A DNA stretch of 31,929 bases, from positions 1-31,929 of IMG/VR virus record IMGVR_UViG_3300025000_000307; one strand, written 5' to 3'. The translations under genes and the position numbers were made by a program. The stretch is from a virus. Positions 3,033-29,531 of the stretch are shown here, piece by piece. The notes beneath the pieces were generated by a model. The model was not told where the DNA came from and did not search any database. It saw only the letters and a list, made by a program, of their open reading frames with translations. How positions within the stretch are numbered: the first letter of the stretch is position 1; each line of letters starts with the position of its first letter.

Positions 3033-3050
3033 TTGACCCTTACGGATCAA
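3033..3050 (-). other. Small hairpin with GUAA loop over the stop codon of the repeat protein
   Basis: On the minus strand TTGATCC and GGGTCAA pair (7 bp, one G-U) around a GTAA, GNRA-type loop. The hairpin includes the TGA stop of the upstream gene and is followed by TTAATATAAC, which is not a convincing U-tract. It could be a stabilising 3' structure or a weak attenuator. Confidence 0.3.
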
Positions 3051-4021
3051 ATTATGAACACTCGAACTTTCATTCTGAGCAAAACAGACCTTGCTATATT
3101 GACACTTGACGTTTCGGTAGCGTCGTTATGCACCTCATCGCGAAAACTAGCAGTTACCAGGGCAGTACCGACAGACAGTACAGAACTGCTAATCATGCCC
3201 TGCCACGTTCTCTTGTTAACGAAATAACCAGTGACGACATGACTATTACCGGCAGAATCTTTAATGACAACCTCCTGCCAGTTATCCAAATCCTCACTGC
3301 TCGTAACATGAACCGCAATATCCTCGCCTTTTACCACGCTGACAGGCGCAGTAATATTCAGAACAGGAGCTATAGTGTCAAGATAGACAGAAAGAAAACC
3401 AGATGCAATAACGTCAATACTGAAACTAATTTCTGCACTATTCGAGTATGGCACAACGAAGCCAGTTTCTAGACATAGGGCCTCACCAACCTCAACTGTG
3501 AAAGCTGTTTCAAGGGACAGGACATTGCCTGTCTTAAGCGATACCTCAGCGTCATTTAGCCATGGTACTGCAAAAGCAGTTTCTAGTCCTAGAGCTTCGC
3601 CGACTTCAACAACAAATCTAGTCTCTAGTGCCAGAATCTTTCCGACAGCTAAATCTATTTCCCCATTGTTTGTCCATGGCACAACGAAGCCAGTTTCTAG
3701 ACATAGGGCCTCACCAACCTCAACTGTGAAAGCTGTTTCAAGGGACAGGACATTGCCTGTCTTAAGCGATACCTCAGCGTCATTTAGCCATGGTACTGCA
3801 AAAGCAGTTTCTAGTCCTAGAGCTTCGCCGACTTCAACAACAAATCTAGTCTCTAGTGCCAGAATCTTTCCGACAGCTAAATCTATTTCCCCATTGTTTG
3901 TCCATGGCACAACGAAGCCAGTTTCTAGACATAGGGCCTCACCAACCTCAACTGTGAAAGCTGTTTCAAGGGACAGGACATTGCCTGTCTTAAGCGATAC
4001 CTCAGCGTCATTGCTGTACAC
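3047..4021 (-). CDS. Tandem-repeat tail protein with C-terminal Ig-like domain
   Basis: The first 190 or so residues are about 2.5 copies of an exact 76-residue unit. Each unit has four LET motifs (LSLETAFTV, LCLETGFVV, LALETRFVV, LGLETAFAV) spaced 14 and 24 residues apart, so each unit is itself two 38-residue halves. The alternating pattern suggests a beta-rich fibrous repeat. The rest (from about residue 210) carries DTIAPVLNITAP and SEDLDNWQEVVIKD, resembling bacterial Ig-like domains and the next gene downstream. The frame begins at a GTG at 4021, 4 bases after the stop of the 843-residue tail protein, with AGGGG about 9 bases before it. An ATG overlapping that stop is in another frame. 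Probably a tail-tip or fibre component; its length may vary. Confidence 0.6.
   Translation of the reverse strand: MYSNDAEVSLKTGNVLSLETAFTVEVGEALCLETGFVVPWTNNGEIDLAVGKILALETRFVVEVGEALGLETAFAVPWLNDAEVSLKTGNVLSLETAFTVEVGEALCLETGFVVPWTNNGEIDLAVGKILALETRFVVEVGEALGLETAFAVPWLNDAEVSLKTGNVLSLETAFTVEVGEALCLETGFVVPYSNSAEISFSIDVIASGFLSVYLDTIAPVLNITAPVSVVKGEDIAVHVTSSEDLDNWQEVVIKDSAGNSHVVTGYFVNKRTWQGMISSSVLSVGTALVTASFRDEVHNDATETSSVNIARSVLLRMKVRVFII
3448..4012. repeat. Exact 228-bp tandem repeat, about 2.5 copies
   Basis: The sequence repeats with a period of 228 bases; for example, the segment starting CCTCACCAAC occurs at 3481, 3709 and 3937. By eye the copies are identical over the whole 565-base array. 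The period is a multiple of three (76 codons), so gain or loss of a unit keeps the reading frame. Identity at all codon positions points to very recent duplication or ongoing homogenisation. Confidence 0.93.
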
Positions 4022-4025
4022 AGCA

Positions 4026-6557
4026 TCACGCCCCTATCACTTCTTCCACTCTGACCTTGACTACAGACGATGGAGCAGTAACAGTCTGCGCCAACACAAC
4101 ACGCATATAAAAAGTAGCACTTGCACCGTCCACAAGCTCTTCCTCAATCAACAAATCATTTTCCGCTACAAACGGAGTTGCTGTCCTGCTGAATTGATAG
4201 GTCTGTCCCTCATTGACTGTATCAGTCCAAATGCGTACACCTGCCAGCGTCTTTCCGGTCATGTTCTTGGCCATAAGCTCCAGAACGCTTGACATACCAC
4301 CGGCTTTAACAATGCCTAGGTCAGGACGATTCAATACATTCCTCATGTCATCTGACATATACAGACCGTTATTTAAAAGCATTATATTTTGATAGGTAGG
4401 CGTAAACGGCATTGCCCATGATCCGGCACTACCCAAAGAGTCCTCAAATTCAATTAGCAGTGTATTTTGCTCATCAATAATAACGTCTGAGGCATTAAAT
4501 CTGTAGCTAATGTCAATAGGAGTCGGCAAAAAGTCGGTAAAGTCACTCTCAGGATATACCTGCACACCATTTACTTTGAGCTTGTACCGCGTCGTGTCTG
4601 ACTCCGGGTCAGTTATATTAGCCGTTAATGTCATATGACTGGTAGACGCTGTAACGCTCGGACGCGTGTTATTTTTCGTCACAAAGCCCTGCCACGAAGC
4701 AGTTTTTCCAGCAGTATTCTTGACTTCAAGCGTTATTGTGCTTACAGTAGCGACAGTAAATAGATTGTTTGCCAATGCCTTGTCTATGTTTACAGGAGAA
4801 GTAACCTGCTCCCAAGGGTATATCTCCACCCCGTCTTTCAGGACGCGGTAAAGCATTTCTCCCTTGTCGGTTGTTAATGTAGCGGTAAGCTCTGAGTCCC
4901 CGATGTGTATATTAGATACCACTGCCGGATTTGTAATCACAGCGTCAGGAATAACAGGGTCAACTATCTGTGCAGTAACCGCCCCGATTTCATCAGTAGT
5001 AGTGATTTTAATCCGATCTCCGACATAAAAGTCAATGGATGATAGGTCAATAAAAATATCTGTATCTAGTTCTGCTATTCTCTCTCCGATAATAGTGCTC
5101 AAAACTACTCCATCGCTATCTAAGCGCTCTATCTTGTACGATACACTGTCGGCGTCAGCGTCTAATATTCTGACAACTAAACTTGTGATCGTATTCGATA
5201 TTGCACTTATGGTTGGCGCTATATTGGTTTTAGTTACAGTGGTTGATGCTGAGACTGCTTCAGACATCGCGTTCATTGCTGTTACTTGAACCGTGTTAGT
5301 CCCAACAATAAACAAGGAGTTATCTAATGTTAAATTAACACTAATTGGAGAAGATGCTAATATCCCATAAGGGATCACAACCACGCCGTTTACAGAAACC
5401 TGATATTTGACTTGAGTTTCTGCTGTACATGTGCAGGTTAGTGCAATATTAGAATTGTGCACTAATGACGGAGTAGTCATTAAGTTATTAACAGATATCG
5501 TTGATTCAACCAAAAGTACAGGTCTAAATCCTGCTACATTAGACGCAGTGCTAGGATTTTGAGTTGTGTAAAAAGAAACGTCATTAGTTCCGTAGACAGT
5601 ACCAGAGTAGCTGTACTCTCCTCTGGTAACCTTGTTGGTGTTTGTCGTAGTATTAACTGTCCATGTTGCTGCTAAAGAACCACGCCAATTCCACACATTT
5701 GTATCGCCGGGAGTAATAAGTCCCCCAAGTGACGAGCCAGCGACTATATTATCCCATTCATTATCCTTATCGGTACTGCTAGATCCGCCTGTCGGTAATT
5801 GTAGAGTACATTTCACCCCGGGACTATCTAGTATCGAAATGCCCGTAGTTATGCCAGCAGCATCTAGGGTGGAGTAGGATATGCTATGCTGAATATTTCT
5901 ATCTGCTATAAATAATTTACGCCCTTCAGAATCATATCCACAAAATATCAGGAGAAATGAACCATCTGGCGTGGCAGTCCCAGAAGGTAATATGGCTGGC
6001 TTAGTGCAATTACCAACTTCGAATATTGCCCCAAATGCACCACTCAAAGCAGCATACCTAGCTTTTAAATAATCTCCAATAACACTCACATCTGCAAAAG
6101 CAGTTCTCATATTTGCTAATGCAGGATGAAATATCTCGCAACCACTATCTATGTCGACGCAGTCAAAACCCATATAATTCGCAACATTCAGAGTTATTAG
6201 TACAGTATGTTTTGTATTGGGAAGTCCAGTTTTTTCAAAGAACACAGTCTGAGGGGGACCCAGATTAGCTAAAGATACTGTTTGACTTACTCCGTCAATT
6301 GATACCGATACATCATAAGCCCTGTACTGATCTCCCACATCAAGTAATCTTATTCTAGTTCCAGTAAATAGGAACGATATTCTAGCTCCTATAACCGCTG
6401 AGTATCTATCTTCACCATTATAATATTGTGCATTAGCGTCTGATTTCCATTGATTTACTGCCGCAGAAGAGGGAGCAATAAAAACCACCCTAGGATCTGA
6501 CCCGTCAAATCTAACCCACCCAGCTTCGGGAGCTAATAATTGTTGCCCAACTGACAT
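4026..6557 (-). CDS. Large multidomain tail fibre / tail-tip protein with Ig-like repeats
   Basis: This 843-residue protein starts after a good AGAGGTGAG ribosome site. Residues about 50-135 (ISFLFTGTRIRLLDVG, NYMGFDCVDID) look like a jelly-roll carbohydrate-binding segment of the kind found in phage fibres. Residues about 350-710 contain at least three Ig-like modules marked by a repeated motif: KYQVSVNGVVVIPY, LYRVLKDGVEIYPW and RYKLKVNGVQVYPE. The C-terminal 130 residues form a separate domain starting MLLNNGLYMSDDMRN. The gene follows five small baseplate/fibre genes and is followed by two more Ig-like proteins. The most likely role is host-surface binding at the tail tip. No catalytic motif was recognised. 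Confidence 0.68.
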   Translation of the reverse strand: MSVGQQLLAPEAGWVRFDGSDPRVVFIAPSSAAVNQWKSDANAQYYNGEDRYSAVIGARISFLFTGTRIRLLDVGDQYRAYDVSVSIDGVSQTVSLANLGPPQTVFFEKTGLPNTKHTVLITLNVANYMGFDCVDIDSGCEIFHPALANMRTAFADVSVIGDYLKARYAALSGAFGAIFEVGNCTKPAILPSGTATPDGSFLLIFCGYDSEGRKLFIADRNIQHSISYSTLDAAGITTGISILDSPGVKCTLQLPTGGSSSTDKDNEWDNIVAGSSLGGLITPGDTNVWNWRGSLAATWTVNTTTNTNKVTRGEYSYSGTVYGTNDVSFYTTQNPSTASNVAGFRPVLLVESTISVNNLMTTPSLVHNSNIALTCTCTAETQVKYQVSVNGVVVIPYGILASSPISVNLTLDNSLFIVGTNTVQVTAMNAMSEAVSASTTVTKTNIAPTISAISNTITSLVVRILDADADSVSYKIERLDSDGVVLSTIIGERIAELDTDIFIDLSSIDFYVGDRIKITTTDEIGAVTAQIVDPVIPDAVITNPAVVSNIHIGDSELTATLTTDKGEMLYRVLKDGVEIYPWEQVTSPVNIDKALANNLFTVATVSTITLEVKNTAGKTASWQGFVTKNNTRPSVTASTSHMTLTANITDPESDTTRYKLKVNGVQVYPESDFTDFLPTPIDISYRFNASDVIIDEQNTLLIEFEDSLGSAGSWAMPFTPTYQNIMLLNNGLYMSDDMRNVLNRPDLGIVKAGGMSSVLELMAKNMTGKTLAGVRIWTDTVNEGQTYQFSRTATPFVAENDLLIEEELVDGASATFYMRVVLAQTVTAPSSVVKVRVEEVIGA

Positions 6558-13888: not shown

Positions 13889-16800
13889 TTAGAGCACCCC
13901 CACAGATATTTTGCCGGTATTGCGCATCTTATCACGGATCATTTGCTCATACTTTCGCGCTATAAGGGGCATGGCTTTTTTAACTACTGCTTGGGCTATA
14001 TCGTCTGCACTTTGCTCTGGACTTGCCTGAATAACTATTGCACCCGACTCGATCTTAATCGAAGGTGCGCTACCGCCATTGCCCTGTGAATTTACCGTAA
14101 TAGTTTGCGCTGTCTGTGTCATTTCCTGAGCTATTGGCGTATTCGCTTGATTTGCGTCCAAGATGTTTCTAATGCTTCTTATCGGAGAGAGAGCGCCAAG
14201 AATATGCCCTGTCTTCTCCCAAAGAGACAGTGCCCTGTTTCTGTTATTTGACAGTGGTATAATAGACTCAGGGCCTTCCTCACCGACATATGCCAGGTGC
14301 TTTTGATTGATTATGCCCCCGGTTGCATATCCGACATACTTGCCACCACTCCGGAACAAAGGCGTATTATAAACACTGCCATAACGCCCTTTGATGTAGT
14401 TTATAGCGGCAGCCGCATTATGCACCGGATTATTGATATCGCCCATGCCAGGCGCAGCATTAGCCCTAAAAGTGCTCGGCAAAGTCTGCAATAACCCTGT
14501 AGCGTGCTCTTTGCCAACAGGCGTTGAATTGTACGCTTTCGGATTTCCGCCTGACTCTGCAGCAACCAACCTTTGCAAACCAGGCAACCATGACTGAGAT
14601 GTTCCTGTCAAAGCTAGTGCCGCCGACAGCCACTGTGTAACGTTACCGCTGACAGCTCCACCACCGCTAAGTACACCACCTAAAGCACTTGGAATATCGC
14701 CAAAAATATCAGTTGCCATGCTCTTTAAGTCATTTGCCTTTAGTCCGTTAATCAGTCCCTGAATCATGTTAATGCCGATGCCATGAAAAACGGTTGAAGG
14801 AGACTGAATTCCAAACGATGCCTTAACCGTGCCGATAACCTTATCTGCCAGGCTTTTAGCTGCAGAAGTCACGCCTTCTGAGCCACTACTTATTCCTGCT
14901 GCCAAGTTATGCGCCACACCAAGTCCAAGAGTATTCATCTGCTCCGCTGTCGGCAGGTTACTCTTAACTGTCTCTGTCACTCTTTTGACCGCGTCAGCAA
15001 CCTTAGGCAGTCCACTGTCTATTCCCTTAGCGTATTCGGCAGATGTATTATTGCCAAGCTCCGGCATTTGCTTGTTGACCTGGTTAGTTAGCCCGTTAAC
15101 ATCAAGGTTGGCAGGAACGTTTAGGTCGGGCACTTTAGTTCCGCCTATTGCCGCTACCTGCTTATTTAACTCTTCTGTGTTAACATTTGCCGGTACCGAT
15201 AAATCTGGCACACCACCGGCATTCAGTGCCGCTACTTGCTTTTCAATGTCCCCAGTGTCAAGATTTGTAGGTATTGATACACCTTGCATCCCCGGTGCAT
15301 TAAGTAGCTTTGTTAGATCGTCAAGATTTTGTGGCATTTCTAAGGATGTCGGTATCTTGACTTCCGCACCCTTCGGCACTTCGGGAGGCTTAGGAGGTTG
15401 CTTCTCCGCTTCTGCCTTAATTCCTAAAAACTTTTTAACAGCGCTTACTGCCTTATCCCAATACTTTGCTATCAAAATGGGTATTCCGATAATTGGCATA
15501 AAGTATGCCAACACAACTATTGCCCAACCCGGTATACCTGCCGAGAATTCTTTTAGCGCATTCCAGAACTTACTCCAGTACATAATAATCAGTACAACTG
15601 CCGCGATTAGAGCAACAATAAGCATAATCACAGCACCAATAGGGTTGGCAGTTAAGGCAGCGTTCAATGCCCATTGCACGCCTGTCCATATCACAGTTAA
15701 CGCTCTAACTGTTGCTATGACCGGTGCAAGTAGAATTAGCGCCGCTCTTTGCAGGTTAGTCGTAATGACAACTGCACCGATCGATGCAGCATATAGCCAT
15801 TGGGCAGCAGTAACAACCAGCATAATACTGTTATATGCTCCGGTTATTAATGCTGCCGATCTAGTGTATATAGCTAGTGCAAGCATTTTCAATCCGGCAT
15901 ATCCAGTAGCAGTACCCATGACTATAGCGTTGTAAGTAGCTACTACCATGGCAGGTATATAGGCTATAATTAGTAATCCTGCTACCACTTTTATGACAAT
16001 GCCGTACCTCTCCCATAAACCTTTCACTGTATCCCAGTTTTTATAGACGAGATAAGCGATTCCTGCCACTAATGCAAACGCACCGAAGGCAAGCAAAGTC
16101 TTAGTCGCTACCATAGTCCAGGTTATCCCCGAAGCCACCATGATAATCCTGAGGATGCCCATGATTCCGACAAGCATCATCGTAACACCAACAACAGTAA
16201 GCGTTACAGACGTTGCCAACAGTGCCGCTCCGATATACTTTATCATCTGCGGATGGGCTTTTGCCCAGACAACAACATTATCACCCATATATTTATTTAG
16301 CTCACGAAAAGCCGTTTTAAGCGGATCCAAGAAAGGTTCCCCAATAACACGTTTAACGATTTTCCATGTCTCCATCATGGATTCCATCAGGTTCTTTGTT
16401 CCGCTCATTTGGATCTCAATCTGCTGATACATGTCCAATTGATTGCCTATGTTCTTACTAACGCTTGTATATATGTTTGAGTCTGACGCCAAAGCTAGAG
16501 CTGTTACCTTGCCTTGTTCCAAGAACACCTTAGACATAAGCGACTGAAAGGCGGCAGGGTTATTAATTTTCTTCCGCGTTTCCTGCAGTATTTGAGTTAT
16601 GTAATCAGCGCCTTTTGTCTGTCCCTTATCGTCGAAAAATATGCTTGTGCCGTCTTGCTTGAGCCAACCAAGCTGATCCATAGCACCTTTTTGTCTTTTG
16701 GTTTTTGGAATAAGGCGGTCGAGAAAATCCTTAGTAAACGTACCTGCAGAAGCACCGTCTTTCGTGTAGGTGCCGGTTGCTGCAAGTATCTTAACCGTGT

Positions 16801-22433: not shown

Positions 22434-25400
22434 TTAACCGTTGTATAGTTTGATAGTGCGGTAAGGCGGATTAAAGGTTACCCCGTTATCGTCAGTCAAC
22501 AGCGGAGTCGTGATACAAAGCTGCTGTGATGCAAAATACTGCTTAGCAGAAGTAATCTTCATGTTTGCATCATAGTGCGGGTGCGGCCCTTCAATGGTGA
22601 AGGGACTGCCCACACCAAGGCGGGTCTTGTTCATTGCACCAAGTAGGAGGCGCTTGTCACCTGCTGCCCACGGCGAGTTGATTTCTCCAAGCTGCACACC
22701 ATTTCTAGTGGCAATGTACGGTCTACCGCTTAACAGGTTAGTGCCTGCAGGCAAGCGGGAGTTATAAAACAGTTCGGCAGAGGTAATATTGACCATAGCA
22801 TTAAGAGAACCTAAAGCAAAGTTAGGTGTTACATATCGCGGTGCGCTGCCCATATACGCTTTTTCATAGTCAAACTGCTCGACCAAGCGGTTGAAATACT
22901 TGGCACGGTCAACGCCGTTCGGCACAGTGATATTAAAGAAAGATACATTTGTCGCATATGCATAAGAAATTGTGGGCCTATGCGTTGCATCAACACCAGA
23001 AGCGGCAGTAAAATACACAAGTGCATTCTCAAAGTCTACCGCATAATGTGGGGTCGTCCTGGTTTGTCTTGCAGGGTCAAATTTGGCTTTAATCTGTCCT
23101 GCAATCGGATCCCAAACACCTTCCACCAGGGTAGCAGCACCAAGCACAACAGTAATCGGGTTAGTTGTGGTAAATACCTTTTTGCCTGTGTGGTCGATGT
23201 AGTGCTTTTTCCTTGGCCTTACGACAGGAGGAACCATTGCGCCAATTGCGGTTGTAGCGTATCCAGCAAGCAGAGAAACAACAAAAGCGGCGTTGGTACC
23301 AATAGGAGCATTTGTGCCAGCTCTAATCGCTGCAATTTCATCTACCGTCACTACTTCGTCAACTACTGATTTTGCCAGGTATTCGTCAGAAGTCATCAGC
23401 ATTTCAGTGCTAGTCTTCTGATCAGTAAGGCGAGCAAGACGTTTAGTTAGATTTGCAAGGTTACGGGCTAATACATCGTACCTAAACGGTCCACTCTTCA
23501 GTTCTTCCACTGATTCCTTGGAAACAACAGTGCCACGTTTCAACCATTCGGCACCGAATTCTAAGGTTGAAGTTGCAGTTCCTTCGGTTTCAATACCTTC
23601 ATATTCGCCTGTCGCAAAGTCATCTTGCGAATATAGATCAGCGCTTTCAATCTCCATCAGCACCTTCATGGTTGTGCCACTGAATGGTTCAGTCATAACA
23701 AGTTGCAGGAAATGTAAGTCTTGCCATACCTGTTGCAAAATTGCGCTGGAAATAATTGACGCTTGCGAAAAGTCACCGGTTGCGCTAAGGGCAGAGTCGG
23801 TAATAGCGCCTTCATCATTAATTGCCTGAGCGCTGTCAGTCAGGGATTTCATATGCTTAATAAAATCAGGGTGATTCTCATTTTCCATGCGCTGGAGTAG
23901 TCGATCAAGAATCGCTTTATTAGCTTTTCTTAACTCAGTGTCTGGTAATACGCCTGTTTTGATTCTAAGATGATCATCAAAAGCTAACATAAGCTTATCG
24001 ATAATCGGTTGCCACGGTTGAGCACCTTCACCAAATGTTACTTCAGGTACTGACGTAGTTTTTGCCTGAGTCTGAAAGCCAAGATTATCTAGCTTGCCTA
24101 CCACTTGCATAGAGTCAACAAAGGCTTTCTCCTGCTCAATAAAACTAACCACCTGAACAGCGTCAGTAATAACGGCCTCACCTTTTTTCTGCAAGGCGTC
24201 CTTAATCTTTTGGTCGTAGGGTAAAGCATTTACAGCGTCAGTCAGTGCTTGGACTGCTGCCTCTTTGAGTTGTGCTGCTGCCACTTCTGCCTGGCGGGTC
24301 TCTTCTGCCTGTCTGTAGCGAGTTAATTCATCGGTGACTGCAGTGCTTTGTTCGGCAATTTCTTTCAGCCTAATAGCCTCGTCACATACGGCCATATCTT
24401 TATGCCCGGCATTAGTAGTCTTCCATTGCTTCAATTCATTAAGAGTCATTGAAAGAAAATTCATCTGGTTATCATCCTCCTTTAGCGAGTCACATATTTC
24501 TTTTATTGCAGCGTCGGTCAAGGGTGTGGGTGCGGAAAATGCCAAAGATTCCCCTGGATTCATAACAACGTCCCAACCATACAAAGTTAAGTTCACCGGA
24601 ACTTCCACATTACGGTTATTAACTTTTCTGGTTACTAAAGGACCAGTCATCCGATTTGAAAGACCGACCGGTTTTCCTGCGTCAATTAGTGCTTGTACCA
24701 TTCTACCCTTAGGGAACTCAGACAATGGCTTATATTCAACCATCACAATACCATCGTCTGTAATGTATGCATCACGAAAAGCCACAGCCTGATTTTCAAG
24801 TACTGATTCAAACATCACAGCACCTGTCTTAGCTCTGTATGATTTCGGGTGTGGATTTTCGCCTACATAAGGGAATTTAGCCTTTTTTAATATTGCTAGT
24901 GCAGGTTCATATATAGGACGTGGATATAGCCTCAGATTGTCATTGATTGCGTCAACTTTGCTGGCAGGTTGACGATACCATCCGGACGGTTTTCCTGCGG
25001 CGTCAACTATCGGCTGTGCCATCGACAGGCAAATATCGTGGGTCTCGCCTGTCGCGTCGGTAATAGTGGCGTGTTGTGCGTCGGAAACTTCGGCAGTAAC
25101 TACGATTGTCGTATCGCCGACTTTGAATCCTACAGCGTTTTGCTTTGCCGCTTCCTCCGCCTCTTTTCTTGCCGCGTACTCAATAGAATAAGCACCTGTC
25201 AACTCGCGTCCCTTAATGTCGATTGCCTCATAGTACAGTCGGCGGTCAATCTCGGTTAGTGCTTCGTTAGCAAGTTTCTTCTTGATTGCCAACAGCGCAA
25301 TTGCCGAAGTCGCGGCAAGAATTTCCTTCATTTGCAAGTCGTCTGATAGTGCGTCGGTGACAGGTGCCGTTTCTCCTACTCCTACATCGTTAGCGCTGTC

Positions 25401-25517
25401 TACTATTGCCCGATCTGCCTGATTCTCGCCGGGCTTAAAGCCGATTGTTCCGTTCTCGTTTCCAGGCTCCAAGCTATCCAAAATAGCTTCTTCCCAGTCG
25501 GTATTTGGTATTTTCAT
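22434..25517 (-). CDS. Prohead protease-scaffold-major capsid fusion protein
   Basis: This 1027-residue single ORF appears to combine three functions. Residues about 200-330 resemble the S78/gp21-like prohead protease: a candidate His223 (ENPHPK), Ser287 in VGLSNR and Asp316 in YGWDVVMNPG. Residues about 340-575 are helical and charged (TRYRQAEETRQAEVAAAQLK), fitting a scaffold. Residues about 580-1027 look like an HK97-type major capsid protein (GDFSQASIISSAILQQVW, TSAELFYNSRLPAGTNLLSG). The ATG at 25517 follows AGGAGG at a good distance. No internal frame break or separate ribosome site was noticed. In most phages these are separate genes. Self-cleavage to release the shell protein is inference. 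Confidence 0.82.
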   Translation of the reverse strand: MKIPNTDWEEAILDSLEPGNENGTIGFKPGENQADRAIVDSANDVGVGETAPVTDALSDDLQMKEILAATSAIALLAIKKKLANEALTEIDRRLYYEAIDIKGRELTGAYSIEYAARKEAEEAAKQNAVGFKVGDTTIVVTAEVSDAQHATITDATGETHDICLSMAQPIVDAAGKPSGWYRQPASKVDAINDNLRLYPRPIYEPALAILKKAKFPYVGENPHPKSYRAKTGAVMFESVLENQAVAFRDAYITDDGIVMVEYKPLSEFPKGRMVQALIDAGKPVGLSNRMTGPLVTRKVNNRNVEVPVNLTLYGWDVVMNPGESLAFSAPTPLTDAAIKEICDSLKEDDNQMNFLSMTLNELKQWKTTNAGHKDMAVCDEAIRLKEIAEQSTAVTDELTRYRQAEETRQAEVAAAQLKEAAVQALTDAVNALPYDQKIKDALQKKGEAVITDAVQVVSFIEQEKAFVDSMQVVGKLDNLGFQTQAKTTSVPEVTFGEGAQPWQPIIDKLMLAFDDHLRIKTGVLPDTELRKANKAILDRLLQRMENENHPDFIKHMKSLTDSAQAINDEGAITDSALSATGDFSQASIISSAILQQVWQDLHFLQLVMTEPFSGTTMKVLMEIESADLYSQDDFATGEYEGIETEGTATSTLEFGAEWLKRGTVVSKESVEELKSGPFRYDVLARNLANLTKRLARLTDQKTSTEMLMTSDEYLAKSVVDEVVTVDEIAAIRAGTNAPIGTNAAFVVSLLAGYATTAIGAMVPPVVRPRKKHYIDHTGKKVFTTTNPITVVLGAATLVEGVWDPIAGQIKAKFDPARQTRTTPHYAVDFENALVYFTAASGVDATHRPTISYAYATNVSFFNITVPNGVDRAKYFNRLVEQFDYEKAYMGSAPRYVTPNFALGSLNAMVNITSAELFYNSRLPAGTNLLSGRPYIATRNGVQLGEINSPWAAGDKRLLLGAMNKTRLGVGSPFTIEGPHPHYDANMKITSAKQYFASQQLCITTPLLTDDNGVTFNPPYRTIKLYNG

Positions 25518-25577: not shown

Positions 25578-25600
25578 AAAATCACCTCCGGGCAAAATAA

Positions 25601-25652
25601 AAAAGGCGATCACCGACACATTCCCGAAGGAACATACCAGTGACCGCCTTTT
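25601..25652 (-). terminator. Strong intrinsic terminator between regulator and capsid genes
   Basis: On the minus strand AAAAGGCG pairs with CGCCTTTT. A second stem (GTCAC/GTGA-type pairs) follows past one mismatch, with an inner TTCC-TTCG-GGAA hairpin capped by a cUUCGg tetraloop. The 3' side runs into TTTTTTATTTT. It lies 46 bases past the regulator stop and about 85 bases before the capsid gene start. This is the best terminator in the window and also reads as bidirectional by its flanking A and T runs. Confidence 0.85.
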
Positions 25653-25681
25653 GTAAGGTAGGTCCAATATGGATGATTTAA

Positions 25682-25687
25682 ATTATA
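25682..25687 (-). promoter_or_regulatory. Perfect -10-like TATAAT between regulator and terminator (weak candidate)
   Basis: The minus strand has TATAAT here, just past the regulator stop, next to the small palindrome ATAACGTTAT. At a 17-base spacing the upstream hexamer is GATACA, a poor -35. The region is AT-rich, so chance is possible. If real, the transcript would begin around 25675 and meet the strong terminator at once. Confidence 0.25.
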
Positions 25688-25698
25688 ATAACGTTATA

Positions 25699-26526
25699 TT
25701 ATTCTGTATCTTTTAGTGATAAGCAGAATTCCGCAAGGGCATCTATTATATTTACAATCGAACCTTTGCCCATATTTCTTATTTTAAGTAAGTCATCATA
25801 GGTTTTATCAGTTAATTCTGAGACAGTACCTATTAACGCTCTCCTTAAATGATTATACGCTCTGGAGTTTATATTTAATTGACTTATGTCACCGTCTAAA
25901 TATAATTCACTTCCATTTCTAACTATTTTCTCGCTATCAACTAGTCTGACATATCTTTTGTTAGCCTCAATCTCGCATAATTTAGCATCATAATCTTTAT
26001 CCCATTTACGGCGACGCGAACAATGAAACATTTTTTTAACTGCCTTTGTCGCGATTTGCTGCGCTCTTGATGGGGTAATATTTAAACCGCTTGATATGTC
26101 AGAATAAGGCTTTAAACTTCTTGCCCTCTCGGTTAATATATAAACTTCTCTCTCGGTTAGATTAACATCTACTGGGCCGACCTCATTATTAACCAGATAA
26201 TCTATTAGTCTCTGATTTCCGTTATCGATATAGCATTCACTGAAAGGCAGGATAGATTTAAGATAACCACGCTCCTCAATATCTTCTCTAAGGCTAGCTA
26301 TTTTTTCATCTTTTTTTATCCGTGCCTGTTTATCTCTATTACTTACATCTTCCTGATACCTTTTAATATCATCTTGACTTATCAAGCAACAACGATCTCC
26401 AGCGCGATAATACTGAATTTTCCCTTTCATGCAAGCAGCATAAATAGCCTCACAAGAAACCCCAATTATATTGGATGCCTCTTTAATAGAGTAAAGTGTC
26501 GTTGGCTCTTTGATAATTATTGGCAT
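25699..26526 (-). CDS. Regulator with HTH, sigma-region-4-like and RNAP alpha-CTD-like domains
   Basis: This 275-residue protein has three recognisable parts. Residues about 10-58 (LYSIKEASNIIGVSCEAIYA and the DDIKRY end) form an excisionase/MerR-type DNA-binding domain. Residues about 122-167 (LTEREVYILTERARS to SRAQQIATKAVKKM) resemble sigma-70 region 4. Residues about 214-273 (SRAYNHLRRALIGTVSELT, KIRNMGKGSIVNIIDALAEF) closely follow the RNA polymerase alpha subunit C-terminal domain, keeping residues equivalent to E. coli Arg265, Asn268, Gly296 and Ser299, with His and Gly at the 269 and 298 positions. It starts after GGAGGTAATAGGA. A strong terminator follows, then the capsid operon. Likely a DNA-binding activator or RNAP-associated factor; direct targets are unknown. 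Confidence 0.78.
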   Translation of the reverse strand: MPIIIKEPTTLYSIKEASNIIGVSCEAIYAACMKGKIQYYRAGDRCCLISQDDIKRYQEDVSNRDKQARIKKDEKIASLREDIEERGYLKSILPFSECYIDNGNQRLIDYLVNNEVGPVDVNLTEREVYILTERARSLKPYSDISSGLNITPSRAQQIATKAVKKMFHCSRRRKWDKDYDAKLCEIEANKRYVRLVDSEKIVRNGSELYLDGDISQLNINSRAYNHLRRALIGTVSELTDKTYDDLLKIRNMGKGSIVNIIDALAEFCLSLKDTE

Positions 26527-26553
26527 TCCTATTACCTCCAGTTTTCTGGTTGG

Positions 26554-26694
26554 CTAATCAACCTTTTCTCTTGTAGTAGTTTCCACTGTTTTAATTTTAC
26601 CATCATGGCAAACAATTTTTAACTCGCCATATCTCGGCAAACGAACTTCCTTTTGCTCTGCCCCATATACAATAATAATCTTATTAACGCTCAA
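26554..26694 (-). CDS. Small YezD/DUF2292-like protein, 46 residues
   Basis: This ORF was found by eye. It encodes MSVNKIIIVYGAEQKEVRLP and then YGELKIVCHDGKIKTVETTTREKV. The last part resembles the short YezD/DUF2292 proteins of Bacillota (a YG-x-[LI]-x-[IV]-x2-[HQ]DGK-[IV]-x2-[IV]E-x-T-x-K pattern). Function of that family is unknown. It sits between the terminator at 26750 and the regulator gene, so it is likely co-transcribed with the regulator. The start is uncertain: a TTG at 26694 is used, but AAGG spacing would better suit an ATT just upstream. Confidence 0.5.
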   Translation of the reverse strand: MSVNKIIIVYGAEQKEVRLPRYGELKIVCHDGKIKTVETTTREKVD

Positions 26695-26749
26695 AATAAT
26701 TTCACATCCTTTTTTAATTAAATAACAACAAGAAGAAGATACTAAATAA

Positions 26750-26776
26750 AAAGCCCATCACAAAGGTGAAGGCTTT
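26750..26776 (-). terminator. Intrinsic terminator after the two small unknown genes
   Basis: On the minus strand AAAGCCT pairs with GGGCTTT (one G-U), then TCAC with GTGA past a single bulged T, around a CTTT loop. It is followed by TTATTTAG. It begins 8 bases after the stop of the 86-residue gene. A T-rich 3' end and the position make it a convincing terminator for this small cassette. Confidence 0.78.
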
Positions 26777-26784
26777 AACTGAAT

Positions 26785-27045
26785 TTATTTTCTTTTAAAC
26801 TTCTCTGCCATCTTCTCTCTCCCTGCAGCGATTTCATCCGCCGCTTTTGCAAATCCCTGAGCTATCTCATAAAATGCAGCTGCCATGACTCTTGCTTCGT
26901 CTTCTATCTCATCAAGGCCGAGTCCTATTTTAAAATTAAGCTTGTCCATGCCCAAAATCTGAGGATGTTCCGATCTGTTTTTCTTCTGCGCCGCTTCATT
27001 TTTGGCTTTTTGTTGTTTGAATTTTTCGTGCATGTCATCCGACAT
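26785..27045 (-). CDS. Small charged helical protein, unrecognised
   Basis: This 86-residue protein has a highly charged N-terminus (EKFKQQKAKNEAAQKKNRSE) and a helical remainder (GLDEIEDEARVMAAAFYEIA, FAKAADEIAAGREKMAEKFK). No membrane segment or family was recognised. The ATG follows AGGGGGAG, and the start overlaps the end of the upstream 68-residue gene by 11 bases, so they are co-translated. A terminator follows directly. The location between portal and capsid genes suggests an accessory (moron-like) gene rather than a core virion protein. Confidence 0.7.
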   Translation of the reverse strand: MSDDMHEKFKQQKAKNEAAQKKNRSEHPQILGMDKLNFKIGLGLDEIEDEARVMAAAFYEIAQGFAKAADEIAAGREKMAEKFKRK

Positions 27046-27241
27046 AATTTCTCCCCCTTGTGTCTAAGATATTTAAGGGAAGGATACACCGGAACTGGTT
27101 AGGGTGTTCAGGAATAAATGAAATATTGGCATAAACTCTAACTTCCTGTCCAACCCCGACAAAACACGTTCTAGGGTCGCGAATATAGCCTTCGGGTATA
27201 CAATCGAATTCATCCCTAATCGAAACCTTATCTCCCAACAC
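27035..27241 (-). CDS. Small hypothetical protein
   Basis: This 68-residue protein (MLGDKVSIRDEFDCIPEGYI, then DPRTCFVGVGQEVRVYANIS) is not recognised. It is strand-rich, without a membrane segment, and contains three Cys. The start is GTG at 27241 with AGGTGG about 6 bases before it. It is preceded by a candidate promoter and overlaps the next gene, forming a two-gene cassette. Confidence 0.65.
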   Translation of the reverse strand: MLGDKVSIRDEFDCIPEGYIRDPRTCFVGVGQEVRVYANISFIPEHPNQFRCILPLNILDTRGRNYVG

Positions 27242-27279
27242 GCTTAACCACCTCTTACCCTTATACCTAATATACTGTC

Positions 27280-27288
27280 ATTATACCA
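27280..27288 (-). promoter_or_regulatory. Candidate extended -10 promoter before the small-gene cassette
   Basis: On the minus strand TGGTATAAT is a perfect -10 with the TG extension. It sits a few bases past the portal stop codon and about 40 bases before the GTG of the 68-residue gene. No good -35 hexamer is visible at 16-18 bases, which an extended -10 can tolerate. The expected start site is near 27273. Confidence 0.5.
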
Positions 27289-27293
27289 CAAAT

Positions 27294-29531
27294 TTATGGC
27301 ATTATGGGGAGTAATGTACAACGGCACTGAGGATGTTTTGGAATATCTGGCGCATCGTCAATGTCATAGATATTTCCGTCAAGCGCTTTACATATCGGGC
27401 ATGTCCTCGCATCTCTTGCGGCACTCCATTCAACCCGCTCAACTCCGGCACCTTTATAATGTGCCTTTGATGATTGATTATAGGCCCACATCATCTCTGT
27501 TCTGGCTATTACAACCGACCTAACAGATTGAGCTGTATTAAATACCTTGTCGATACGTGCAGCAATTTTAAGAGCACCTTCACCGGCCATATAGCCTTCA
27601 GATAAAGCAACCCTGATCTGCTCCCGTGTTGTGTCGCCAATACCTTTAATCCGCTCGCCTGTCTCGTTATAGACGCGGTTAAAGATATCTTCCGTTAGAA
27701 GTTTAAATTCAAGCCCTAGCTGAATATAAGCATATTCACCGCCAAGACCTGCCGCACTCCTATAAAATGGAGACATAGCATTTAAGTAAAGTGCAGTTTC
27801 ATCTATCCATGCACTGTCAAAGCTATCGATAATCTTTTGTGTAGCTTTGTGCGCTGCTTCATCGTCTACCTCAGCGTCGGCAGCGTCAGTTACTTCCTGC
27901 TCCTGCTCAGCTATCTTTTTTTTTAGCTTTTTATGAACATTGGAGAATAGTTTTTGGGTTTGCTTTAGCACCTTAGCCTCAAGAGCGTTGATTTCCTTCT
28001 CTTGAAACCCATCTGCCCACTCTTGAGCGTCAGTGATATGGCTATGACCATAACCGTCAGTAAGTTGCGTTTCCCGTGGTTCTAAGATAGGCGGCATACC
28101 GGCCAGCAAAGCCAACGCCGCCTTACTTTCTTCGTCAATCGCTGCAAGTTCCTCGTCCACACTCTCAACATCGAAGTCGTTAGCGATGGACTGCAGCGCT
28201 GTTCTCCTGCTCAGCAACTTGCCCCTCATAACCTTGAGAACGCGATCTATCCTGTCCTTTGTCGGTTCGTTGCTCTTATCGCTCCAGCGGATATTGTAGC
28301 TCACTGAATCAGGGTTAATGCCCTGTAGTAGCAGCGCAAAATCGAATATATCCCGAAGACCTGAGAACGCTCCAGAATCCCCATATTCCAAGGCATCAGT
28401 CAGCTGTTCAAGGCTTTTTTCATATTCCTTATACTGATCTTCTAGTACGTCGCGGTTAATATCCTCAGCGAAACCCAGCAGACCTTTTGGAACCCCTAAG
28501 CGTAAAAAAGCCATATTGAGCAGATAAATAATATCCGCAATTTCATGTAGCTTAGCGTCACCGTCAAGGTTCTTTATGTCCGTTAGACCATTGCCGTAGT
28601 AGTCAGTTGTAACTTTAAATTTACTACTGCCAAGGGAATTTTTCTTTTTATATTCCTCCACCGCGTCCCAGTTCTGCGGCTTTTCTTTGTTACCAACTGT
28701 ATGTAATCTTCTCTGTGGTGCCCTGGTGCGACGTCTAACAACCAAGTCTTCCTCTGTCATTTGTAACTTCTTCACTAAGCTTCGGATCTGCTTATACTGG
28801 CTGTTGCCGTAAACATCACCGTCTGTATGGTCCCACCTGATATGGTTCATCTGCCACAAGGCAAAGTGGCGCGATGCACTGTCAGGTATTCCAGCAAATA
28901 ATGAAGCAGCGTGCATGGCAGGATCTAACTGACTAAATGCTTGGTTGATATCGATAAACTGCCCTCTGTCATCCACATTTCGCTTCATCGTGATCGGTGG
29001 TACCCTACGAATATCGACAATGGTATTGTCCCGCATATCAACAATGACGTTGAGCATCAGATCGCCGTCAGAAACCAGTCGCTTTGCCCAGCCGTTGACC
29101 TTAGCATTAACCTTTGCTGTTTTCACCAGGTCGTTAAGTATCTGCTGCGCCTTGTTGGCTGTAGCGTTGGACCGTGCTTTTGTCGCACCGGGTCGCGCTT
29201 TTTTGTTTTTGGCTTGAATGTCAGAAGTAGCACCCGACACGACTACTGTTATGCCGCCCCGCGTTGCAGCGTTAGCCATGCGCTTATTAGCCTCAGCTAC
29301 CCTCGGATCCTCGTCAAGCAGTTTTTGAACATCAGCAAGCACAGACCTTCTGTCATTTTCAACCTTGAATATGTCGTAGTTAAAAAGACTCTCAGATTGT
29401 GCCTGACTAGCTACTTCTGAGTAGTGATCTGTTGATTGTACATCCTCAACCTCCGCTGTAGGCTTAGAAGTTTTAAAAAGAGAGGTTATTTTGGAGGTAA
29501 GTTTATCTATAAGCATCATAGTAATCATCAT
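27294..29531 (-). CDS. Portal protein fused to C-terminal MuF-like minor head domain
   Basis: This 745-residue protein carries a portal core: residues about 160-320 with DNTIVDIRRVPPITMK, a QMNHIRWDHTDGDVYGNSQY segment and VRRRTRAPQRRLHTV, which resembles the T4 gp20-like portal family. The last 130 or so residues resemble MuF/SPP1 gp7-type domains: VVIARTEMMWAYNQ, then a cysteine pair in CPIC and CRC and a KHPQCRCTLLP end. Normally this is a separate gene. It overlaps the large terminase gene by 29 bases. Several ATGs crowd the start (29531, 29528, 29519, 29516) and the GAGG site suits none perfectly, so the exact start is uncertain. The ring anchors DNA packaging. Confidence 0.85.
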   Translation of the reverse strand: MMITMMLIDKLTSKITSLFKTSKPTAEVEDVQSTDHYSEVASQAQSESLFNYDIFKVENDRRSVLADVQKLLDEDPRVAEANKRMANAATRGGITVVVSGATSDIQAKNKKARPGATKARSNATANKAQQILNDLVKTAKVNAKVNGWAKRLVSDGDLMLNVIVDMRDNTIVDIRRVPPITMKRNVDDRGQFIDINQAFSQLDPAMHAASLFAGIPDSASRHFALWQMNHIRWDHTDGDVYGNSQYKQIRSLVKKLQMTEEDLVVRRRTRAPQRRLHTVGNKEKPQNWDAVEEYKKKNSLGSSKFKVTTDYYGNGLTDIKNLDGDAKLHEIADIIYLLNMAFLRLGVPKGLLGFAEDINRDVLEDQYKEYEKSLEQLTDALEYGDSGAFSGLRDIFDFALLLQGINPDSVSYNIRWSDKSNEPTKDRIDRVLKVMRGKLLSRRTALQSIANDFDVESVDEELAAIDEESKAALALLAGMPPILEPRETQLTDGYGHSHITDAQEWADGFQEKEINALEAKVLKQTQKLFSNVHKKLKKKIAEQEQEVTDAADAEVDDEAAHKATQKIIDSFDSAWIDETALYLNAMSPFYRSAAGLGGEYAYIQLGLEFKLLTEDIFNRVYNETGERIKGIGDTTREQIRVALSEGYMAGEGALKIAARIDKVFNTAQSVRSVVIARTEMMWAYNQSSKAHYKGAGVERVEWSAARDARTCPICKALDGNIYDIDDAPDIPKHPQCRCTLLPIMP

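Follow-up and report, generated by a model that had tools for sequence, protein, structure and literature searches.

A phage protein uniting an excisionase-type winged HTH, a sigma region 4-like domain and an RNA polymerase alpha-CTD, as predicted from sequence and fold, in a moron-like cassette of the head operon

The window analysed here is the whole 31,929-nucleotide stretch of the viral record IMGVR_UViG_3300025000_000307, and the genes around the regulator lie on the same strand as it, in the order TerS, TerL, portal-Mu F-like fusion, 86-aa ORF, regulator, protease/capsid and tail genes. The regulator is read from the minus strand, from 26526 to 25699, and has a good GGAGG ribosome-binding site. 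As the initial annotation stated, its gene lies in the head operon, with a strong terminator just downstream and the capsid gene next. The features of the locus are as follows:

27294..29531, minus strand: portal protein fused to a Mu F-like head morphogenesis domain
26785..27045, minus strand: ORF of 86 aa, upstream of the inserted cassette and also present in the sister phage L002
26744..26775, minus strand: upstream terminator (-10.1 kcal/mol), common to the window and L002; the cassette starts at its T-tract
25594..26743, minus strand: inserted cassette of 1,150 bp, absent from L002 at the same site
26554..26694, minus strand: XtrA-like ORF of 46 aa with a TTG start, directly upstream of the regulator
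25699..26526, minus strand: regulator gene P0001, ATG start, 275 aa, with an excisionase-type winged HTH, a sigma-4-like domain and an alpha-CTD
26350..26496, minus strand: excisionase/MerR-type winged HTH (HTH_17), residues 11-59, by Pfam and Foldseek
26014..26163, minus strand: sigma region 4-like HTH, residues 122-171, by a weak Pfam match and by a family profile compared with shuffles
25897..26022, minus strand: linker, residues 169-210, a long predicted helix between sigma-4 and alpha-CTD (AlphaFold2, pLDDT about 63-70)
25702..25911, minus strand: RNAP alpha-CTD, residues 206-275, with counterparts of R265, N268, G296 and S299
25605..25648, minus strand: strong intrinsic terminator closing the cassette (stem-loop of -30.5 kcal/mol)
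22434..25517, minus strand: head protease/major capsid protein, 1027 aa (phrog_22848, phrog_207), downstream of the cassette

With gp6 of Brevibacillus phage Emery the capsid protein shares 52.5% identity, which points to a Bacillota host; a TerL scan across bacterial genomes found no host. Elsewhere in the window, a LSLETAFTVEVGEALCLETGFVVPW-type unit recurs several times in near-identical form within an ORF at 3047-4021 (minus strand).

The regulator had been read initially as a combination of an excisionase HTH, a sigma-4-like and an alpha-CTD domain, and this reading is borne out by Pfam, the predicted fold and a family profile. Its C-terminus is, by sequence profile and predicted fold, a true RNAP alpha-CTD. 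It matches PF03118 (RNA_pol_A_CTD) with E=6.6e-14 (51.8 bits against a cut-off of 23.8), and its top sequence matches in the PDB are the alpha subunits of clostridia and Bacillus. As AlphaFold gave a poor model from the single sequence (pLDDT 41), an alignment-based AlphaFold2 model was used in its place; the alpha-CTD part of this model (pLDDT about 90-96) superimposes on the B. subtilis alpha-CTD (1z3e_B) with a Z of 13.6 and an rmsd of 0.8 A over 67 residues. Both the profile match and the predicted fold are hence those of an alpha-CTD, and the proposed counterparts of Arg265, Asn268, Gly296 and Ser299 are found as R222, N225, G253 and S256. In E. coli alpha these four residues contact DNA, while D259 and E261 touch sigma. 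This 261 determinant is lost in the regulator (D259Q, E261N), and other alpha-CTD positions are also changed (K298 to G, E302 to N). A search with a second alpha-CTD motif found nothing.

Pfam detected neither the alpha N-terminal dimerisation/assembly domain of RpoA nor Sigma70_r2 (region 2, responsible for -10 recognition and core binding) in the regulator at E values up to 10. As region 2 is absent, the protein cannot open promoters or act as a sigma factor on its own. The N-terminal domain matches PF12728 (HTH_17) just above the cut-off (4.1e-6, 27.4 bits against 27), and Foldseek relates its model to the Xis structure of phage Pukovnik (4j2n) with an rmsd of 0.7. By their kind, all three predicted domains would be expected to face DNA or RNAP.

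The central domain matches Pfam weakly, with PF04545 alone giving E 0.0064 and 16.4 bits, under the cut-off of 24.1. A sigma-4-only profile built from ten phage relatives (see below) scores 28.3 bits against the regulator, and 20,000 composition-preserving shuffles reach 18.5 at most. Since this score exceeds that of every shuffle, we regard the sigma-4 domain as real by homology. The corresponding part of the structural model was built on the relatives' alignment and is not independent of this homology claim, and the VIA-align structure matches listed all fell on the alpha-CTD, so that none is independent for sigma-4. The residues with which sigma70 reads the -35 element (R584, E585, R588 and Q589) are P, S, Q and Q in the regulator, whereas most of the phage relatives retain RERIRQ or a close form at this helix. 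The replacement of R584, E585 and R588 implies that either the target differs or a -35 element is no longer read, and the domain may have lost its RNAP or promoter function.

When the whole regulator protein was scanned against IMG/VR and 84,980 genomes no close relative was recovered. A scan of IMG/VR with an alpha-CTD alignment yielded 20 loci, including L019, L021, L026 and L029-L035, whose proteins match both Sigma70_r4 (6.7e-10 to 6.5e-19) and RNA_pol_A_CTD (2e-16 to 1.7e-23) above the cut-offs; L036-L038 duplicate L035 or L034 almost exactly. The full profile of this family aligns to the regulator without interruption over residues 97-273 (76.6 bits), with sigma-4, linker and alpha-CTD colinear. 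In the ten phage relatives R265, N268 and G296 are invariant and S299 is nearly so. A Cro/C1-type HTH is present at the N-terminus in L019, L030 and L035, indicating that an HTH ahead of the sigma4-alphaCTD pair recurs. These profile alignments identify a core of sigma-4 and alpha-CTD with an exchangeable N-terminal HTH as recurrent among phages, and, together with the model, place the regulator as a divergent member of this family.

Inspection of the gene neighbours of these homologues, as the initial annotation had suggested, places those with readable surroundings in early/replication regions and not in head operons. The genes of L021 and L033 precede an SbcC-like ATPase, RecT or Sak4, that of L031 follows a DNA polymerase, that of L030 is near a helicase and a DnaD-like loader, that of L026 neighbours replication initiation and that of L019 a DnaB-like helicase. 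Given this difference in setting, the role of the relatives may differ from that of the regulator. The initial annotation knew of no well-described phage system with this combination of domains. At least ten phage contigs do carry sigma-4 plus alpha-CTD, so that the pairing itself is not unique to this phage; our literature searches found no paper on such a protein, their coverage being partial and absence there weak evidence.

An alpha-CTD with no sigma-4 match was found in Mazun gp26, L020, L023 and L025, and also, as judged by eye, in Goe8 gp005. The Goe8 gp005 gene, coding for an alpha-CTD and an unrelated N-terminal part, occurs near both genome ends (L027 2409-2567, L028 4001-4159), possibly within a terminal repeat. 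Terminal repeats often house host-takeover genes. At L020 (G005 14144-14335 and 14649-14834) and L022 (G007 5062-5455), two adjacent stretches of one phage code for alpha-CTDs, and the proteins of 97 aa and 179 aa have a C-terminal tail in common. The phage-database matches H1-H3 and H6 were discarded because they are bacterial rpoA genes, encoding full RpoA among ribosomal genes, on metagenome contigs that had been mislabelled, and unannotated human-faecal, Listeria, Enterococcus and Staphylococcus matches in that database were left out. The records MT837142, MT837710, MT837602 and MT835508, labelled Bacteriophage sp., hold rpoA in a bacterial ribosomal operon and on this account represent bacterial contamination.

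The regulator gene lies on a cassette that contains, in addition, the XtrA-like ORF and the strong terminator, and has a GC content of 35% against 45% for the window. The sister phage L002, which is about 87% identical to the window over TerL-portal and 82% over the capsid gene, is continuous across this site, with the 86-aa ORF and its terminator followed directly by the capsid leader. The T-tracts of the two terminators flanking the insertion are near-identical. The cassette thus shows several traits of a moron, namely a close relative that lacks it, an atypical composition and a terminator of its own. A search for a cassette promoter gave no clear candidate, the promoter-like matches being weak and near the number expected by chance, and this leaves the moron reading incomplete. 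Its sequence features are best read as those of a moron-like, accessory element.

At the portal-capsid junction (window 26785-27350, compared with Emery L041 3171-8378) the two genes are 8 bp apart in Emery; L002 has the 86-aa ORF and terminator between them, and the window has these plus the 1,150-bp cassette. The close spacing in Emery implies that the junction gathered its cargo in steps. Two intrinsic terminators (26744-26775 and 25605-25648) precede the capsid gene within the head operon; little space is left there for a new promoter, an arrangement suggestive of antitermination or leaky readthrough in late transcription.

The 46-aa ORF of the cassette is likely to be a homolog of XtrA: it matches phrog_1551 with 3.9e-7 and PF17356 (PBSX_XtrA) with 4.6e-6 (26.8 bits, slightly under the cut-off of 29.7). 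No XtrA was found in the records of the sigma4-alphaCTD family, indicating that it is not a general partner of these proteins. In Streptococcus satellite phages the protein following XtrA-like ORFs has no matching domain; in Javan746 (L015 3950-5058), a 48-aa XtrA-like ORF is followed by a 291-aa protein with no recognised domains, and this pair resembles the cassette pair in size.

These observations bear on the initial proposal that the regulator could be a late-gene activator. In the form that we consider, it would be an Xpf-like factor as in PBSX, co-expressed with XtrA and required for transcription of the phage's own head and tail genes. Its sigma-4-like domain and its location in the head operon are in keeping with such a role, as is the XtrA-like ORF directly upstream, since XtrA similarly precedes the late-regulating sigma-like factor in PBSX-like elements (PMC8347963). 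In a B. pumilus PBSX-like element XtrA is followed by a positive control sigma-like factor with 49% to Xpf, and the same paper states that regulation of the late cassette by Xpf is known (PMC8347963). Likewise, the XtrA gene of Aeribacillus phage AP45 is located two genes ahead of a sigma factor of the Xpf-like phrog_1190 family; this AP45 protein, however, matches neither HTH_17 nor alpha-CTD, and the regulator itself matches phrog_1190 with E=0.16 only. The proposal is weakened further by the distribution of the gene: L002 lacks it at the site together with the rest of the cassette, and the records of the three closest relatives, one of them 80 kb long, show no regulator match. Moreover, both longer virus relatives, G002 and G003, already encode a separate, ordinary sigma-4 protein. 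That of G002 (158 aa, phrog_1190 at 4e-24) lies about 2.8 kb upstream of TerL, and the matching place in the present phage falls beyond the end of the window. A full sigma factor, comprising both region 2 and region 4, is encoded in the early region of Emery. Late regulators usually sit upstream of the terminase, whereas the regulator gene lies between the portal and capsid genes, inside the very structural operon that it would switch on, and not upstream of the small terminase as in the PBSX Xpf type. As the sister phage lacks the gene at this site and the lineage has another sigma-4 regulator, we consider it unlikely that the regulator is the main late switch.

The explanation that we favor, with some reserve, is that the regulator is probably an accessory transcription regulator that acts with the host RNAP and is encoded, together with an XtrA-like gene, on a moron-like cassette closed by its own terminator. 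The winged HTH and the alpha-CTD would bind DNA upstream of a few promoters, and the sigma-4-like domain might touch the beta-flap of RNAP or bind a -35-like element of a different sequence. Host RNAP would thereby be recruited to, or excluded from, the target promoters, so that the protein may activate by recruitment or repress by occlusion. The target could be a promoter of the phage; the moron-like look of the cassette also allows for one of the host or of a prophage in the lysogen. Against this explanation we count the weakness of the sigma-4 match on its own, the changed -35-reading residues, the loss of the sigma-contacting 261 determinant from the alpha-CTD and the want of a clear cassette promoter. 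Purely negative action is a related scenario, in which the protein would occupy UP/-35-like DNA or the beta-flap and block promoters of the host or of rival phages, serving host takeover or superinfection immunity. The moron-like setting would suit this, as would the presence of the upstream half of promoter recognition without sigma region 2, with which promoters would not be opened alone; a precedent is T4 gp33, a beta-flap-bound mimic of sigma4 that represses basal transcription (PMC2988020). Binding to ordinary -35 elements would be expected of most relatives, which retain an RpoD-like recognition helix, but the residues concerned are gone from the regulator, and we hold a dedicated repressor or competitor to be rather doubtful. 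Still further from the evidence, and in our estimate quite improbable, is a role in DNA architecture or excision, with the activity residing in HTH_17 and the polymerase-derived domains contributing DNA binding only. The alpha-CTD and HTH domains are indeed all DNA binders, and the N-terminus has the Xis fold and matches the excisionase profile TIGR01764 (2.2e-5, under the cut-off). However, Xis proteins are usually small and single-domain and their genes usually lie beside the integrase gene, whereas the regulator gene is located in the head operon with no integrase recognised beside it, and its relatives carry a Cro/C1 HTH or none.

Phages are known to take over host RNAP by means of sigma factors, anti-sigma factors and small proteins that bind RNAP. 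Both sigma-4 regulators and alpha-CTD proteins of phages have already been recognised, at least by annotation, and a recurring fusion of the two in phages is apparently undescribed in the literature, of which our coverage was partial. We tentatively raise the possibility that phages have repeatedly built regulators from sigma-4, alpha-CTD and a target-choosing HTH, as a portable upstream half-holoenzyme that redirects host RNAP and that has here moved between phages as a small cassette. A single regulator that fuses the -35-gripping and UP-gripping polymerase domains would represent a new design, one that is easily tested in vitro and that might serve to redirect transcription in Gram-positive bacteria. 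The fusion also provides a searchable signature for regulators that are now listed only as a sigma factor or a DNA-binding protein.

Among known systems, the alpha subunit of RNAP (RpoA) shares with the regulator the alpha-CTD fold and the DNA-contact residues, but the regulator lacks the alpha N-terminal domain and the 261 determinant (D259, E261). Phage-encoded alpha-CTDs on proteins other than RpoA are found in Goe8 gp005 and Microbacterium phage Mazun gp26, and also in BFVD records (Mithril, Finch); in the first two, sigma-4 gives no match (Mazun) or is not visible (Goe8), and the N-terminal parts are unrelated. T4 gp33 and gp55 imitate sigma domains and work through the beta-flap (PMC2988020). 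They share with the regulator the idea of phage copies of sigma domains, with no sequence relation claimed, and gp33 differs in lacking DNA sequence recognition. The late regulators of the PBSX Xpf/phrog_1190 type resemble it in their sigma-4-like domain and in the XtrA-type gene nearby, but the phrog_1190 members examined show no alpha-CTD or HTH_17 match and are encoded upstream of the terminase, not between portal and capsid. The closest architecture is that of the IMG/VR proteins with sigma-4 and alpha-CTD (L019, L021, L026 and L029-L038), which have about 19-28% identity to the regulator and display the same colinear sigma region 4, linker and alpha-CTD, some with an added N-terminal HTH. 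Unlike the regulator, most of these keep RpoD-like -35 reading residues, and they bear a Cro/C1 HTH or none where it has HTH_17.
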